64,000 bases of DNA, from contig CAUDNR010002113.1 in NCBI GenBank assembly GCA_958430865.1, forward strand, positions 1 through 64,000, in the 5' to 3' direction. The notes under the pieces were generated by a model. It saw only the letters and a program-made list of their open reading frames with translations, searched no databases and was not told where the DNA came from. Made by a program: the position numbers and the translations under genes. Positions 26,456 through 36,500 of this stretch are shown here, piece by piece. The stretch is from Entrophospora sp. SA101. Its lineage: Eukaryota; Glomeromycota; Glomeromycetes; Entrophosporales; Entrophosporaceae. Positions within the stretch are counted from its first letter, which is position 1. Every line of letters begins with the position of its first letter.

Positions 26456-27015
26456 TATACAGTCCCCCAAAAAAGTAATGGCGGGGTGTTTTTTTATTAT
26501 TAAAAAATTTTTTATATAACAATTATAAAAAAAAAAATTATTTTTAAAAAATTTAAAAGTAAAAGATTATATTTTCGAAAGATTAGAATATAATGAATTT
26601 TCATTCTATATTAATTCAAATTTGAATGTAATTTTTAAATAATTAATTTTACCAAGTACTGCTTTAATTTTTTAAAAAAAGGTCAAAATTTTTAATAACT
26701 TGACAAACATCAGTTGTATTATAATAAAACAACTATCAAAATGTTCACCTAGTTAAGCTGAATTCAATAAAGTCAAAATGATTAAAATCCAATTACTAGT
26801 TATTAAGAAAACAAACTTTAAAAGTTGTCAACAATTTTAAAGATAAAAAAACATCTCTATATTAAAACTTTATGAATTTCGATTTTTTAATAATAATCTT
26901 TTAACAAGTTATTCATTACTATTATTTATATATTTTGGTTAAATAAAATAAAATATTATTATGATAAATTTTGCATAATAATCCCACTGCCATTACTTTT
27001 TTGGGGGACTCTATA
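26456..27015. mobile_element. TA-flanked MITE with AGTCCCCCAAAAAAGTAATGGC ends
   Basis: The left AGTCCCCCAAAAAAGTAATG and the right CATTACTTTTTTGGGGGACT are perfect inverted repeats of at least 20 bp with TATA at both edges, as in Tc1/mariner-type MITEs. The interior is A+T-rich and non-coding. Length is about 560 bp. Confidence 0.82.
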
Positions 27016-27256
27016 ACCAAGAAAACGTGGGAGTTTTTTTTTATAAAATTTATGTGGTGTAACAATTTTTTGGCCGTTTTGGCCGTTTTTGCCAAATGGC
27101 CGTGGCCAAATGCCAACACTGATCACAAGGTTTGTAATGCTTAAGGGTAGAGACCTCCCTATAAATGATTTTCATTATAGAAAATGTCCACAAAATTTGG
27201 TGATCTGCATTACATATAAAAAAAAATACAATAATAAAAGTTTATAATAATATTAT
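27016..27256. other. Downstream flank of the transposase-RecQ gene
   Basis: 27068-27110 has a short GGCCGTTTTGGCCGTTTTTG repeat and its partial inverse. 27138-27150 carries TTAAGGGTAGAG, whose inverse (CTCTACCCTTAA) is at 32587-32598 on the other side of the gene. That pair may be a short terminal repeat or chance. Confidence 0.3.
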
Positions 27257-29423
27257 TTATTTTTGTCGAGAATTAAATAATTTTTCCCAATTTTCTTGCA
27301 TTATCATTGCAGTAGCACCTTCAACGACACCAAATATATGAAGATTTGTCTGTAATATACTTCCATTTGAGTTTGGTCTATATAAGTTTATCATTACTTT
27401 CACTATTTTACGTATTATAAGCAGATCAAGCAAATGTAGTGCTTCAGCTTTAGTCTTAATCAATCTTTCTTGTTTAAACGTTTTATCTTTATAAGTATTC
27501 AACAAGGTGAGTTCTTCATGATCACATTTCAATTGACAATAAACCTGTATAATATTCTTTGGTGTAGCTATTTTACCATTTTCGTTCAATTTATTCACCA
27601 CTTCTTCACTTACCTCTACCATTTTGAGCACATCTGACATCAAATTAACTTTAGATACAGGTTTAGCTTGTACTCGTAAACAGTTGTCACAATTTCCACA
27701 TGGAGGATTCAGAGTATCACCATTCCATGCAAAATATTCTGCTAGCATATATTCTCTACAAGTATATTGCTCCTCACAAAAATAAACAACTTCAAATATT
27801 TTGGCTTGCCTTTTATCTATTTCAGAACCTTCATCTACTTCCTCAGTCACTCTACAAAAATCGTTTGTATTATTATTATTGGTTTTAATTTTACATTACA
27901 ATATCAAAATACTTACAATTCTCTTCCTTGTGTTATAATTGTATAATTAGTACAAATATCATGACGGGAATAAAAAATCACAGATTTTGCAGAATTATGA
28001 TCTCTTTCTGCTCTCCCTGTTTCTTGGACAAGATTGCCTATTATAAAAAGGTAAGATTATATTATATCAATCTGTTTAATTTTTAAAGCAGTAGTTAGTT
28101 ACTTACCTATACTCAATGGAAATGTATAATGTATTACTAGGCGAATTTTTTTGTCATTAATTCCCATACCAAAAGCATTAGTTGCAATCATAATCTGAAT
28201 TTTATTATCTTTCCATGATTTCAATTTTTTATTTTTTTCTCCATTACCTAGAGAACTGTAATACACTGCCATATCATATCAAGATCAGCTTTTTCACAGA
28301 GTAGTTCATAAACATTATCACACACATGCACTGTTGGGCAGTAGATAATGCATTTTCCATCTTCTAATTCTTTCAACAACATGATAATTTCTCTAATTAA
28401 TTTCTCTTTAGTACTTTTAGAATGCACCTCTATTTTAAGCTCTGGACATGAAAAAGAAATTCCTTGAACAAAGGTAACATCAGATGGAGAAATACAAAGA
28501 TTTTCCAATATTGCATGAGCATCAATTTCCTTGCAAGTTCCTGTAAGCATCATAATTGGGATATCGGGAAATAGATGGTGATTTTCCTAAGTTTGTTCCA
28601 TGAAAAGTTAGATTACATTTATTTCAATAATAATTATTTTACTAAAAAGCCAATTTATTTTAGTTTTTTTACCTATAATGTCCACTTTCTATAATACAAT
28701 GTACTTCATCTATTACAAAAGACACAGGTGAATTTTTGGAAAAGTTCAACAGCATTTTGGTAAATGATTCATTATAAACAAAACTTTCTGCAGTCACATA
28801 TATGAGTTTTGTCAATCCAACAGCAATTTCTGAAAAGACTTTTTCAAAGTATTCTCGTGGCCTATCTTCACCAGTATAAATACTAGCACACCCAATTCCA
28901 GCAATCTATAAAAGAGTAAGGTAAATTTTCTTTCTTTTAAATATAAATCATTAATAAAACTTACCACTTGATCATCAATTAAAGATACTAATGGGCTTAT
29001 TACAATGGTCAAACCTCCACGCATTATAGCAGAAATCCAATAACACATTGATTTTCCAGCACCTGTTCTCATTGAAACAAAAGTATGATTTCCATTAACA
29101 TATTCTGATATTGCCATTTCTTGTGATTCTTGAAACTTTTGATATTTGAATACTTTTGTAAGCACATCATATGATGTAGGTGGATTAGCTTTCAAGTCTT
29201 GTGAAGGTGGTGTGTATTGATTATTTGGAAATTCATGATGATATCCAAATTTCAAACAGAAGTCATGATACTGACACAATCCTGTTGGAGAATACTTGGG
29301 AAAAGCATCACAAGCCAGACATTTTATAATTTTTTCAAAATCAAATATATATTTGGCAAATGTAGGTTCAAATTCTTTAGCTTTTATTTTTTCCTGAACA
29401 CTACGTCCATAAGGTACATAATC
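27257..29423 (-). pseudogene. RecQ half: complete helicase motif set and zinc/winged-helix region
   Basis: All RecQ motifs can be read: motif 0 FKYQKFQESQEMAI; Walker A RTGAGKSMCY (about residue 908); Ia VISPLVSLIDDQV; II FVIDEVHCIIESGHYR; III PIMMLTGTC; IV GKCIIYCPTVHVC; V IQIMIATNAFGMGINDKKIR; VI VQETGRAERDH; then the RecQ zinc module (CEEQYTCREYMLAEYF...CGNCDNC) and a winged-helix-like C-terminus ending NWEKLFNSRQK. DEVH replaces the usual DEAH, and the usual GRAGRDG reads GRAERDH. Two frame lesions fall here (between motifs II and III, and between motifs IV and V). RecQ enzymes unwind DNA 3' to 5' and act in recombination. Confidence 0.88.
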
Positions 29424-29492
29424 CTAAAAAAAAAAAAAAAAATCAAAGAATATTAACATATTATTTAATATATTTCAAACCAGGTTGTTTAC

Positions 29493-31661
29493 CTTGTCCC
29501 AATCAAATGTCTCAAGATTCCTTTTCTGTTCTTGAATCTTCTTACCACGTTCTTGATTTCTTTCAGCAATACTAATAACGTTTTTCTGATTTTGCTTTAT
29601 TCGCTGTTCACTTATTTGATTAATATTATATTTGTCAGCTTCAGATAATTGTTGGATATTACAAGCTGACCTGGAAATTTCCAGCATATTCAATAAACCA
29701 TTATTATATTGAAGAACAGCAAGGGCATGGCGTGTGCTGTAAGTTTTCCAATAATCAATTTTTTTATCCTGAAAACAAAGTTTTACACAATTGAATGCTT
29801 CATTGTATGATGTTCTAATGTGAGTAATTAAACTTTGTTTTGTAGGTATATAAAAAATTTTTTTGAGAAATTCTCTAAACTGATCTATTTGATTGCTTGT
29901 ATGATCTCTCAAATGTGGTTCTTTTAATTGAATATCAGGGTTTCCTTTTCTCCAACATACTTCATCCCAACAAAGGCTATGATTATCTGAAAGGTCCACC
30001 AATCTGTACCTTTTCTAGTTCATCATCAGACACAGTAATTTTATTTCCATCAAGCTTTCTTCCACTTGCTGCATACACACATGAATTATAATAGGTCATA
30101 ATTGTATTTTCATAATCTTTCCATATAGAGTTTTTTGCTGTAAAAAAAGGATAATAATAAGTGGATTATATAAAAACAGGTATGTGATTTAAGAAAGTTT
30201 ACCAATCTTTGCCCTTATATTCTTTCCAACATGTTTCAAATCTGCATATACTTTACTCACACAAGGAATATTATTTAAAGTTTTATTTGAGTTTAGGTCA
30301 CCATCTACACAAATATCCAAGAGTACTTCAGCTTCTTCCAATACTGGTGATATTTTTTCAATAATTCGTAACAATATTGCATGTTCCATCTGACGTGATG
30401 ATTGCTCATGATTGCCATGAAAAACTTCATACTCTTTGCCATCTTTATTTTTCAACTGACGTGGTTTTTCAGCAGTAGAAAAGGCAATAACAGGTTTGTG
30501 GTCATAATCTATTTGTAAAAAAGACTTTTAATTAGCAATTCTAACCAATTAATAATATTGTATTACCTTCTAAATTTCCCTGAAATATTAGCTCTCCACT
30601 AGCTTGATTTGCATTTCGACAATGTGACCAGGAACAATCAAAACTAGCAGGAAGTATTCTTTCTCCTTTTGCTTTGATATATGCAATAGCTTTTGTTAAA
30701 GCAATTTGTGCACTAACTTCAGCTTCATTATTTATGCTTTTCAAATATTCATTTTGTCTATCATAATAATGACCTTTTGATGACTGTGTTGTTACTCCCA
30801 TCATAGAAAAAATGGTTTGAAGTTGTCTCCTATTAACACCACCAACAAGTCCTGCTCCTGCTGCAAGTAAAGAAAATTTTGTACCAGGTAACTCATTATT
30901 ATATTCAGTAATTCCTTGACACATTTTACAATTGATTGTAATTTGAAGATTATAGCCAATTTTATTAACTTTCAGCTTCTTTTTAGACAGATCAAGGTTA
31001 TGGCATGTTAAACAAGGTTGAATAAATATGTTGGTGAGATATTGTTCAGTGTTAACTAATATTGTTGATCCAAATTTATTTTCTTCTATAGTTTTTTGCA
31101 CCCAATCTTTCAATGAATCCTTATTTTTTTTTTCATACTGATTATATTTTAAATTCTTTGCATATTCAAGGTCGGCTTTAGCATGTTTGAATCTTTTACG
31201 TAATGCATCACTTGATTTTTTTGAAGATTCATAATCAATTGCAAGAGCTAAAGTTGCTTCTGAAGATAAGTTTAGACCTGTTTCTTTAATTTCTATTCCT
31301 TGACAAATTATTGGATCTTGTGAAATTAACAATGAATTTCTTGCCTTTGCAATTATTTTTTCACCCTTTTTTTGCATAGTGGCAGTTAGCTTTACCATTT
31401 TGTTTTGAGGTTTTGTCAATGCAACAGAAGTTTCAAAAATATTTGGATAAATTGAATTGACTTTGGCTTGTAGATCATGTATAATATCAGGGTTACCAAA
31501 TCCAAGAATATCTGGAATAGAAATCTTCCCTGACCAATTTATGTATTTCTTCATGCTAACAAAAAAATCTGGGTTTGTTCCTTCGTGTATAATTTGTGTC
31601 ATCTCCACATTATTATAAATTTTCCAATGATATGTAAGGTATTCATTATTACTTTGAATTT
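29493..31661 (-). pseudogene. Transposase half: Mutator-like domain
   Basis: Features in order (residue numbers of the fusion model): zinc-binding CLTC...CKMC pair at about 320-350; FSLLAAGAGLVGGVNRRQLQ and the KGHYYDRQ motif (about 370-415); FDCSWSHCRNANQ (first catalytic Asp candidate, about 448); VLLDICVDGDLNSN (second Asp, about 537) followed by KVYADLKHVGKNIRAKIGK, which matches the 'K-C-HV-KR' region after the second Asp in Mutator-like transposases; and TSYNEAFNCVKL (acidic third residue candidate, about 685). This order and spacing match the Mutator-like transposase domain found in animals and fungi. A 1-nt insertion at about 30000 separates the second and third catalytic residues. 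Confidence 0.78.
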
Positions 31662-32042
31662 CTAGATAAAAATATATAACTCACCAAACTTTCCAATAAC
31701 ACAATGTCCAGGAAGTAAAGGAACCAATGGAGCAGTTGATATATCTCTTTTTGTAACATTATGATAATATGGATTTTTAGAATGATCCTCCACATTTATT
31801 TGTAATTCAGCATGAATACTAAGAATCTTGTGTGATTTTGATATATCACGAAGCATGTATCCACCATTTGCTCTTTTAAATTTTTCTAAAGAAGAATTGT
31901 TAGTTTGCATGTATTGTATCCACTGTGGAATCCTACAATAAATAAACAAAAATCAAAAAAAATATAGAACTTAAATATTTATTTGCTTATAATAAATAAT
32001 ACCTTTCCTTTTTTTTACTATTACTATTGTTTTCTACTGTCA

Positions 32043-33515
32043 CTAAATAAACATATTTATAAAATAAAACTAGAATTAGTATAAGCTCGACATAACATTA
32101 TTAATATTAGACATTCGCGACTATAGTCATTTGCAACTTAATAAGACATTCATGATTTCAAATAAGTTAAAATAAAATATTATTGCATTTAGCATATGCG
32201 ACTATAGTCATTCGCAACTTAATAAGACATTCACGATTTCAAATAAGTTAAAATAAATATTATTGCATTTAGCATAGATATTTATGTGTTTATGGAAGTT
32301 ACTTGTGGTTAAAATAGCTTTAACAGTCATTTGCAAATTTTAACTTAGGAATTCGCTAACTTTACTAGGAATTCGCCAGGAATTTGAACTTCGTTAATAA
32401 TATAAGTCATTATTTTTTAATACTAACTTTTATTTTTTTTTACATAAAGTTAAACTATAGTTCTTAGCAATATATTCTATGTGATTTTATAAAGGAATAA
32501 TAAAAGATATGACTCGTTTTATTTTAATATGTCATGGGAAATTTTTTTGGACATTTTTCATATTCGATTTTGTAATATGTAGATCCTCTACCCTTAAAAA
32601 GCTGGACTTCTGAAGAAGATAGTAATGATGTTTAAAAGTGGTTTGATTATTAGAACAAATTAATTTGTTTTTTTTAAAAAAATAATTTTTTTCATTTTAT
32701 TATAAAAATAAAATTCTTAAATTTAACTTGACCAATAAAATTATAAAAATAAAATTCTTAAATTTAAACTTGGCCAATAAAATTATAAAACCGTGGTTAA
32801 ACTTGGGTTTGAACCGCGGTTCAAACTGTGATCAGTAAACTGTCAATTGGTGCAGTTCACTAGTCAAACTGGCAGTTTATAAACCAAACTGAACCGAACC
32901 GAACCGAACCATTCCCATCCCTACCAATAAAATTATCCCTTAAATTGGCTATCGTACAAATTTGTACGATTAAATTTTTTTATATAAAAAAATTTTTCTG
33001 ATCATCACGCTTTCTAATTAACAAATGATATTTGAGATTCTATACATTGATCTATATATAGAAATTCGGCCATTATTATTATGGGTTTTGTAAAACTGTA
33101 AAAAGTCTACAATGCCCGTGTCGATCATTACCTTAAAAATTGATATATTCATAATAAAATTTTTTATTATGCGATTTGATTGGTGGAATTTTGTGATTTA
33201 CCAATAAAATTTTTCGAAATTCCCTTATTCGAAAATGTGGACAGTTTAAGGGATAAAACTGCGGTTAAACTTGGGTTTGAACTGCAGTGGTAAACCGCCA
33301 GTCGGTGCAGTTCACTAGCCAAACTGGCAGTTTATAAACCGAACCAAACTGAACAGCATAATAGAAGTTTGTTCATGTCACATGCAGATCATTAATTTGT
33401 GACACAATTGAATTATATTGCGAACATAGTAATACAACGACTTTTTATATCTTATGTAACCTATTTTTTTTAGAAGGTACGTGATAAAAATATTACAATT
33501 TAATGTTTTTCATAC
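32043..33515. repeat. Repeat-rich long first intron or upstream region of the fusion gene
   Basis: Contains an 81-bp tandem duplication (about 32117-32277, GCGACTATAGTCATTYGCAA in each unit), a shorter ~43-bp duplication (about 32695-32790, AAAATTCTTAAATTTAA), and two diverged direct repeats (about 32785-32905 and 33252-33355) sharing TGGTTAAACTTGGGTTTGAA-like and CAGTTCACTAGYCAAACTGG. No gene. If exon 1 at 33516-33537 is right, this is one intron swollen by repeats. Confidence 0.6.
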
Positions 33516-33537
33516 CTCCTTCTGTATTTTTAGACAT

Positions 33538-36500
33538 TTGGATCGAATGGGACTGAATAGATTCATGATCTAGATGAGAAGCAAAATTTATTATAGAAGA
33601 AGTAACAAATTAGCAATAAATAGTGGTAATTTCAAATAATTTTTTTTAACACAATAAATGATTTTATCATTTTCCATATCATCAATTATTAATTTCAACA
33701 TTGAGAACAGGTTAAATCAAATATGTTTAGAGATTAAATCGAATATTTTAATTATTAATGTATATATAAATAATAAATAATAAAATAAAATACATGGTGT
33801 ATTGTATATTAAATATGTTATATGTAAATCTATTATTTAAGGGTAGAGTATACGTAACACAAATTTTACTATGATACAGTGGATAATTTTTTGGCTGCCG
33901 ATCATTAAAATATNNNNNNNNNNAAAAAGTTTGGTTGATTTTTTTGGCAATCGAAATTTGTAAATAAATAAAAAATAAATAAACAAACAAACCGATTCAC
34001 ATTTCAAATATTTTTTCTTGCTTGCTTTTTATCTAGATATGGTTATTGAAAAAAAATAAAATCCAACTCACCCTCGTCTTTTTTCTATTCAATATATAAA
34101 AAAATATGTTCATCAGGTCGGCCAGTGGGTGGGACGCATACAGTGACTGGGGTGGCTGTGTGCCATGCGGAAGAGTAAAATTGAAAAAATTATCTATTAC
34201 AATTTGTTGCCCAGGTTCTAATAATTCCAAAAATAAAGAGTTTGTTTTAACCCTAGTGGTTTGAAATTGCGAACAAAAGTGGCATGACTATTTGGGATTC
34301 AAATCAGTAAGGCAATTTTTAAGCATCTTAATTTTTTTGGCGTAGTTAAACCTTAATTTAATATTAATAACACATCTTTTCTTGACTTCGCCGTTTTCTT
34401 TGCACGTTGTGCAATAGTTTGCCATAAGGAGCAAAGAAAACTCGAGTTTTTTTAATTCAAATATCAGAGAAGCACTAATTAGTAAAACGCGTTTTTTAAT
34501 CTTTTTATAAACGTGTAGATAAATTACGATCAATCAATCTTGGACGAAAACCAATTATTACTAATTTTTTATTATATTTATTGTTTATTTTTTATTAGAT
34601 AGTGACGGATGGAATGGAGTGTTGATGTGGATGAGAAGGCTTATCTGTCAAGTATTATTTTTATTACCATTTTCATTATACGCTATACACGAATCATTTA
34701 TATTCAACCACTTTTCATTATTTTCATTGATATATATCCATCGAGAAAACGAATTTTTGGCTATCTATTTCTCAAATGAGATTGGGCTTTTTAAATAAAT
34801 AATAAATTCTTGCTCAACGCAATGAATGAAATAAAATATTGATATAATAATAGTGTACAACTGGCTAACTTTGATGCTCCGTACGAATACATAGATACCT
34901 CTCATTTGTATGTAACGTGTAAAACCAAATAATATATTTCAGCACTACTACTACGTGCATCGATCCTCGAATTCGAATGCAACGTAAAAAGCAAAAACTA
35001 ATGCACTGTTTTTTGGTCCACGAGTGGAGGGTAGAGGATCTATTTATATGCTTTGTGGTAATTTATTAGATTACTCGATCAATGCATCATATGGCCATGA
35101 AATAAGCTATTTTTATTAAAGATTGCATTATTCATTAACTATGAATACATGATGGGATGCTAAGATGCTCCGAACGAATATACATGGTGTGTTTAAGTCG
35201 TGTGATTTTATAAAATTATGACGCCAGAATATCATCGCGCTATAATGCTAATCTATATTTCACGAAACTCACTGATACGTTTTCGTTTAAAAACTCGTTT
35301 GATATTTAAGAAATCACAGTTCGCAAAATTTACTTTTTGAGATGACGCTCTTTGCTAGTTTTATTATTTAAATATCATTAATTATTTAATAATCACCTTG
35401 CCACGGTTACCTTCTCAACCATGAATATCTTTTAAAATACAAGTTAAACCGTGTCCACGGCTAAACTACTAACATGAAGAAGAGCCGTAGAAAAGTCATT
35501 GCTTCTTTTTATTTTTACTGAAGTCAACAAAAAACTAGAAGCTAGCCTTCTGGTCATATATTAATTGCATATACTATGTATGTACGAAAAGAATTTTAAC
35601 GACTCTAGGTATTAGTATGTTCGTACGAAATCATCGATACTAATGATATCATTCATTTAATATTAATTAATGGTGACATTTTAATTTTTGAATGATACGA
35701 TCTAGTGCATCATACTGTTTTTATAGTGATGACATCAGTTTTCCTATGATGTGAATTGGTCATGGAAAATAATGTATGTCACATAATATTAACGCATAAC
35801 ATGCTTGTAATGATAATAACAAAAGAAGATTACGTGATCCAAGCCCTTGTTTTGGCATAGATTTCAAATTTTACAAGGTGACAATATCAAGGCAGTGCTA
35901 TATAGTGACAAAGTTGCAACATATCTGATACACAAATTGTGATTTTTTTAGGAAAATATATAATAATTTATATATATTTCTTTTCCTAGGGTTATGTCTT
36001 CTTTGGTGAAAATTTTTAATAGCGGAAGCAGCAACTTATTTCACTTCTCCAAGGAACTCGTAAATTTTCGTCAAATAGGTTTTTGAAACCCTTTCAACGT
36101 CCTCCAAGTGGTTTACATTTCGCGATATAATAATTATTGATGATGATTTTATAATAACTCTTCTTATGTTCAACAAACACAGAGTATCATTGTCTATAAA
36201 ACTTCTGAGATATAAAACAAAAACTTAATATAGCAAAGAAAAAAGATTTTCAAACCAGAAGAACTATTGTGTTTTTTACTTGTCACTTTCTTTGTGGTCA
36301 TGTAATTAAGGATCATGTGCAGATCATAATACGTGAAGGATATTGAAAAAAAAAACGAATAAATAAATAAATACATTATAATGCAGTACAATTGTGACAT
36401 GGCTAATTCAACCCTCAAAGTCTTTATACGAAATTTAATGTTCACTGTCTGGTTTTGTTGCAGCATTTCAAACACTAGACTTTCCACATGTCACTGTTAA

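Follow-up and report, generated by a model that had tools for sequence, protein, structure and literature searches.

The closest described system to the locus analyzed here is the KolobokH lineage of the Kolobok superfamily, for which Kojima and Bao (2022, PMC9587614) describe the same layout. KolobokH has also been reported adjoining telomere repeats in Cladobotryum mycophilum (PMC10989895), and that report, citing PMC9587614, likens its KolobokH to a structure primarily of Rhizophagus irregularis; the word Rhizophagus is absent from the accessible main text of PMC9587614. The KolobokH and AcademH helicases are discussed in PMC10799480, Kolobok is among the profiles used for R. irregularis in PMC11075540, and PMC4455052, in its accessible part, lists Kolobok only. 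The initial annotation of the present locus had held that no DDE transposase with a RecQ domain was described; as KolobokH elements are already in print (PMC9587614), its belief in an undescribed element type was wrong.

Here a 64,000-nucleotide stretch of Entrophospora sp. SA101 (contig CAUDNR010002113.1, hereafter the window) was analyzed together with the genome from which it comes. The window very probably contains a decayed copy of a KolobokH-type DNA transposon (Kolobok superfamily) whose relatives in the same genome encode transposase and RecQ as one polypeptide. A TTAA duplication, empty sites and near-identical copies at unrelated places support this reading.

Structure of the window element

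The TTAA-flanked element spans 27141–32597, with TTAA-GGGTAGAG inverted repeats at 27141 and 32597 that are exact over 8 bases only. The limits initially given, 27257–33537, are thus replaced, 32598–33537 lying outside the element, while the transposase and RecQ pieces do lie on the minus strand, where they had been placed. With introns set by eye from GT-AG borders and homology, the features are as follows:

27141–27144, no strand: TTAA target-site copy, element 3′ end; similarity between the window and the C1248 copy ends at precisely this point
27145–27152, plus: terminal inverted repeat GGGTAGAG, element 3′ end
27257–27851, minus: final RecQ exon, comprising the zinc-binding module and the C-terminal region (RecQ_Zn_bind 5.3e-9)
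27917–28037, minus: RecQ exon with motif VI (QETGRAERD); 3′ edge set by the GT of the next intron
28107–28586, minus: RecQ exon, second helicase domain; frame break near 28270
28673–28905, minus: RecQ exon with DEVH box; frame into the next exon not clean
28965–29423, minus: RecQ exon, C-x2-C...C-x2-H cluster linker followed by Walker A (TGAGKS) (DEAD 4.6e-9)
29424–29492, minus: 69-nt GT-AG intron at the transposase/RecQ junction
29493–30137, minus: transposase exon, C/H cluster and catalytic Glu (29801–29799, by motif); frame break near 30000
30203–30508, minus: transposase exon, second Asp (VDGD, 30305–30303) and DxxH motif (DLKH)
30567–31673, minus: transposase exon, N-terminal C-x2-C...C-x2-C cluster and first Asp (FDCSW, 30639–30637) (PF20700 1.3e-5, below cut-off)
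31674–31932, minus: N-terminal module, homologous to the family C protein start; frame break near 31673
32586–32593, minus: terminal inverted repeat GGGTAGAG, element 5′ end
32594–32597, no strand: TTAA target-site copy, element 5′ end; no second family A copy was seen reaching this end

The junction intron (29492–29424, GTAAAC...TTTTAG) keeps the frame from FDWDK to DYVPYG, as initially annotated, and exactly 23 residues (69 nt) are missing at its position in two relatives. The other introns lie at 30566–30509, 30202–30138, 28964–28906, 28672–28587, 28106–28038 and 27916–27852. The single continuous spliced frame that had been proposed for this copy did not hold: relative to the frame of the relatives it is broken at about four places (around 31673, 30000 and 28270, and at the exon pair 28673/28586), so that the copy is damaged and probably encodes no full-length protein. 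In Pfam searches the RecQ pieces gave the DEAD and RecQ_Zn_bind matches listed above, and the scores of the transposase pieces with PF20700, 24.7 and 18.3 bits, stayed below its cut-off of 26.5.

Several further repeats were seen in the window. An 81-bp tandem repeat in two copies occupies 32117–32276 in the 5′ region of the element. A 560-bp inverted-repeat element with 39-nt arms, 85% complementary (TATACAGTCCCCCAAAAAAGTAATGGC), lies at 26456–27015, and similarity between the window and C1316 ends at 26457, its outer edge; the similarity of C419 and C1316 to the window also ends at 31670–31673, beside the first frame break. Just outside the transposon, 33837–33913 resembles the family C 3′ end (TTAAGGGTAGAGTATACGTAAC...), giving 50–77 bp matches at 85–89% to other family C ends and adjoining a 10-base N run (33914–33923); no partner for this end was found in the window with a 12-base motif (≤1 mismatch). 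Positions 2018–22672 and 43346–64000 are 100% identical direct copies of 20,655 bases, the match reaching the end of the window, and represent either a segmental duplication of very recent date or an artefact of assembly. Among the other contigs matched in the searches, C1318, C419 and C1323 likewise contain places that recur within the contig.

Transposase and RecQ in one frame in same-genome relatives

The 101.3-Mb assembly (2123 contigs) was searched with both halves. Relatives 38–47% identical to the window at the transposase end carry both halves in one uninterrupted frame. The transposon with its own RecQ helicase fused in frame that the initial annotation envisaged is borne out by these relatives. 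Scoring the best candidates only, 18 places had a transposase match reaching at least position 495 of 531, and at 17 of these RecQ lay ≤200 bp downstream on the same strand (lower bounds); the only exception was a fragment at C1554. At 9 of these 17 places, all in families B and C, a single open frame contained both matches. Since many of these places are near-identical copies, the independent units are five subfamilies:

Family A (window type): C419, C1248, C1316, C1341
Family B: C1448 (two places), C1879, C130
Family C: C913, C1439, C316, C1255 (two places)
Family D: C793, C1318 (two places); stops in all
Fifth subfamily: C167

The subfamilies with a fused frame share about 43–45% identity with each other. 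The transposase-RecQ join is real: one frame spans the junction in two subfamilies, and the linker between the halves is present in all five. Transposase and RecQ are about 190 nt apart in family D and about 80 nt apart in C167. The order along the relatives’ predicted polypeptide is an N-terminal module, a DDE transposase with C/H clusters, a C-x2-C...C-x2-C linker, and RecQ with its zinc module.

The longest fusion frame, 1210 codons without interruption, is found in family B at C1448 (L055 1383–5012) and encodes protein P0001. P0001 matched the Pfam models DEAD (7.1e-24), Helicase_C (3.4e-20) and RecQ_Zn_bind (1e-6), and its residues 662–1109 matched solved RecQ1-type structures at ~1e-55 and BLM at 2e-54. 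Both features of the RecQ helicase family are present, namely the helicase motifs (Walker A, DESH, SAT and QESGRAGRD) and a four-Cys zinc module (C-x19-C-x2-C-x2-C). This copy departs from those at C1879 and C130 beyond L055 4901 and appears to be truncated at the 5′ end; C130 and C1879 have frame breaks of their own, located upstream of the junction. A spliced model for C913 consists of pieces that stay open all the way from the N-terminal module to the stop codon, with ambiguous edges for its first and last introns (4 and 10 candidates). L055 5575–7501 and L056 1–1262 read as N, hiding the surroundings of those copies. Searches of viral_contigs (18 pattern stretches) and genome_contigs (105), covering viruses, bacteria and archaea, with two short peptide patterns each gave no confirmed relative.

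Ends, target sites and copies

Over 5.26 kb the elements at C913 and C1439 share 99.6% identity, their flanks differ, and TTAA is present on both sides; at both ends the similarity breaks at TTAA followed by GGGTAGAGTGTAG. An 18-base end motif (≤2 mismatches) gave 108 matches in the genome versus 0 for a reversed control, and the base preceding TTAA varied among these matches. Family B elements (C1879:2515–7648 and C130:40673–45838) end in TTAA-GGGTAGGGGGAATC. The window copy and the elements of families B and C have GGGTAG...CTACCC termini at either end. The elements are 5.1–5.5 kb long, and in families A, B and C transposase and RecQ both lie between the ends. When joined, the flanks of the C913 element matched five empty sites (98–99% over 364/364 nt) that carry a single TTAA, showing that insertion duplicates TTAA. 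The joined flanks of C130 likewise matched C984 (96% over query 1–206, crossing TTAA), with weaker repeat copies crossing too. No empty site was found for C1439: of 84 candidates, 40 were scored, with just 126 nt of right flank in the query, and the 39 other places obtained resembled the left flank alone.

Two query exons from the window are 100% identical at four places, and the idea that these represent four independent transpositions was ruled out by flanks and match limits: C1316 has 684 bp of 3′ flank in common with the window, the C419 match reaches 27519 at most on the 3′ side, and C1248, the sole family A copy with a different 3′ flank from TTAA onwards, matches upstream to no further than 30169. 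In family B, C1879 and C1448 are 100% identical over 968 bp that take in the 3′ end and the sequence past it, and are therefore not independent insertions, and in family C the two C1255 places carry the same bases outside one end. Pairs of ends in the same orientation about 190–212 bp apart were also seen (C382:56968/57161, C528:5436/5648, C648:21173/21385 and C1482:37199/37411; L060–L062), possibly tandem short non-autonomous derivatives.

Assignment of the transposase

The features used to define Kolobok were compared with the elements found here. The TTAA duplication is seen in the TTAA ends and five empty sites of the relatives, and the window copy has TTAA at both ends. The 5′-RR/YY-3′ termini, which set Kolobok apart from piggyBac, are represented by GGGTAG...CTACCC. 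A DDD/E triad with C/DxxH between the second D and E can be assigned by motif, with predicted catalytic residues D219, D310 and E472 and DLKH at 331 in P0001, and D467, D562 and E712 and DLKH at 583 in P0002, the protein of a second relative. A zinc finger, a feature of almost all Kolobok lineages between C/DxxH and E (PMC9587614), is predicted at that position in P0001 (C365...H412-x2-C415-x4-C420) and P0002 (C615...H652-x2-C655-x4-C660). The termini, the D-D-E triad with DxxH and the C/H cluster before E thus fit the Kolobok superfamily. MuDR/MULE target duplications are long, 8–11 bp; no such duplication was found, that of the relative being the 4-bp TTAA. DxxH alone is common to MuDR and Kolobok (PMC9587614), and it is the TTAA duplication, the 5′-GG...CC-3′ ends, DxxH and the C/H cluster together that replace the Mutator-like (MULE, in the MuDR sense) label of the initial annotation.

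A whole-genome search with PF20700 (Mutator-like transposase) gave four places above the cut-off (42.3, 41.6, 40.4 and 26.7 bits), all in the RecQ-fusion group; hmmscan reported no PF20700 in P0001 or P0002, and the P0001 place was the one scoring 40.4 bits in the genome search. PF20700 is matched here but is a domain model, not a superfamily assignment, and the TTAA ends point to Kolobok. Kolobok transposases have an RNase H-like catalytic fold; of two structural models of the present transposase, the first was RNase H-like but weak (mean pLDDT 52; best Foldseek match TM 0.15, rmsd 26) and the second (pLDDT 41) uninformative. Within Kolobok, where its sequence features place the element, assignment to KolobokH is suggested by RecQ and layout rather than by a tree.

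Origin of the RecQ half and alternative explanations

In a FastTree analysis, the RecQs of the fusion group together with that of C1617 separated from five host-like RecQs on a branch of 1.16 with support 1.000. This tree covered 12 of 19 translated loci, with rows assembled from tblastn pieces (the family D row having 217 residues) and no outside outgroup. At C1617 (L046 1326–3177) the N-terminal module of the fusion is joined directly to RecQ and the transposase is missing, so that this locus looks like a fusion copy that has undergone an internal deletion. Nei-Gojobori dN/dS values between family B and degenerate relatives were 0.46 for the transposase half (C1054, dS 0.17) and 0.22, 0.27 and 0.27 for the RecQ half (C1463, C1320 and C1481; dS 0.67–0.95); the C775 comparison was saturated at synonymous sites. 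Near-identical copies had too few changes for dN/dS (C130 transposase 0.23 at dS 0.007, C130 RecQ 0, C1448 none).

Could the two halves simply be neighboring genes, a transposon beside an unrelated RecQ gene, joined only via an intron-like gap? The intron-sized gap with stops between the halves in the window and the gaps of ~190 and ~80 nt in family D and C167 would agree with this, but 9 of 17 places have both halves in one open frame, the linker recurs in all five subfamilies, in families A, B and C the two halves lie together inside the element ends, and the 1210-codon frame contradicts it outright, making such an arrangement highly improbable. A host RecQ gene, domesticated or telomere-linked, that received a transposon fragment is an equally poor prospect. 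The genome does have other RecQ-like genes, and telomere-linked RecQ genes exist in fungi; against this, the fused RecQs sit on a long branch away from the five host-like ones with support 1.0, and the sole apparent solo RecQ of the fusion group, C1617, retains the N-terminal module of the fusion.

The remaining explanation concerns the transposase, which could belong to a new chimera of a MULE (MuDR) with RecQ, separate from KolobokH. PF20700, the Pfam model reached, does carry the Mutator-like name, and the likeness to KolobokH comes from description, not from aligned sequences. The TTAA duplication, GG...CC ends, DxxH and C/H cluster before E are, however, Kolobok features as given in PMC9587614, and a MuDR chimera is considered very unlikely. 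A KolobokH-type element that encodes transposase and RecQ as one polypeptide is therefore the preferred reading.

Possible role of the helicase

DDE transposases cut and join ends, and RecQ helicases unwind DNA 3′ to 5′. In a KolobokH-type fusion, the transposase half would bind the element ends, cut at TTAA and paste into a new TTAA, and the tethered RecQ half would act as a 3′–5′ helicase on DNA at the cut ends or the donor gap; this unwinding might aid strand exposure and repair that retains the donor copy. It is conceivable, and proposed here tentatively, that the helicase contributes directly to the transposition machinery, one polypeptide cutting TTAA and unwinding through RecQ, with transposition coupled to its own repair and the C/H-cluster linker serving as the coupling module. 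Alternatively, RecQ could help to select targets in DNA that is recombining or telomeric, or could counter host repair. The initial annotation suggested that it might process excision gaps or direct the element to recombining or subtelomeric DNA; in Cladobotryum, KolobokH is placed beside telomere repeats (PMC10989895). With exact ends, empty sites, a fused frame and several diverged subfamilies available within a single genome, the anatomy of this RecQ-carrying cut-and-paste element is clear, and these features make a role of the helicase in transposition directly testable. RecQ genes predicted in such genomes may also be transposon genes.

Comparison with known systems

Other helicase-bearing DNA transposons share parts of this organization. 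AcademH elements of animals and fungi encode a helicase, as here, but belong to a different superfamily (PMC10799480). The rhodophyte element Kolobok-1_CCri is a Kolobok with a RecQ helicase, as here; its RecQ lies on the complementary strand and so, unlike here, is not a fusion (PMC9587614). The KolobokH of Cladobotryum mycophilum has RecQ-like helicase genes in common with the present elements and differs in size and content: it measures about 10.5 kb and holds two RecQ-like genes plus an uncharacterized one, compared with 5.1–5.5 kb and one fused gene here (PMC10989895). With the KolobokH elements of PMC9587614 the likeness is one of description, the sequences being unaligned, and no difference was shown; in its accessible part that paper makes no statement on whether transposase and RecQ form one polypeptide. 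In the present elements a single uninterrupted frame, a C/H-cluster linker and empty sites are directly documented.
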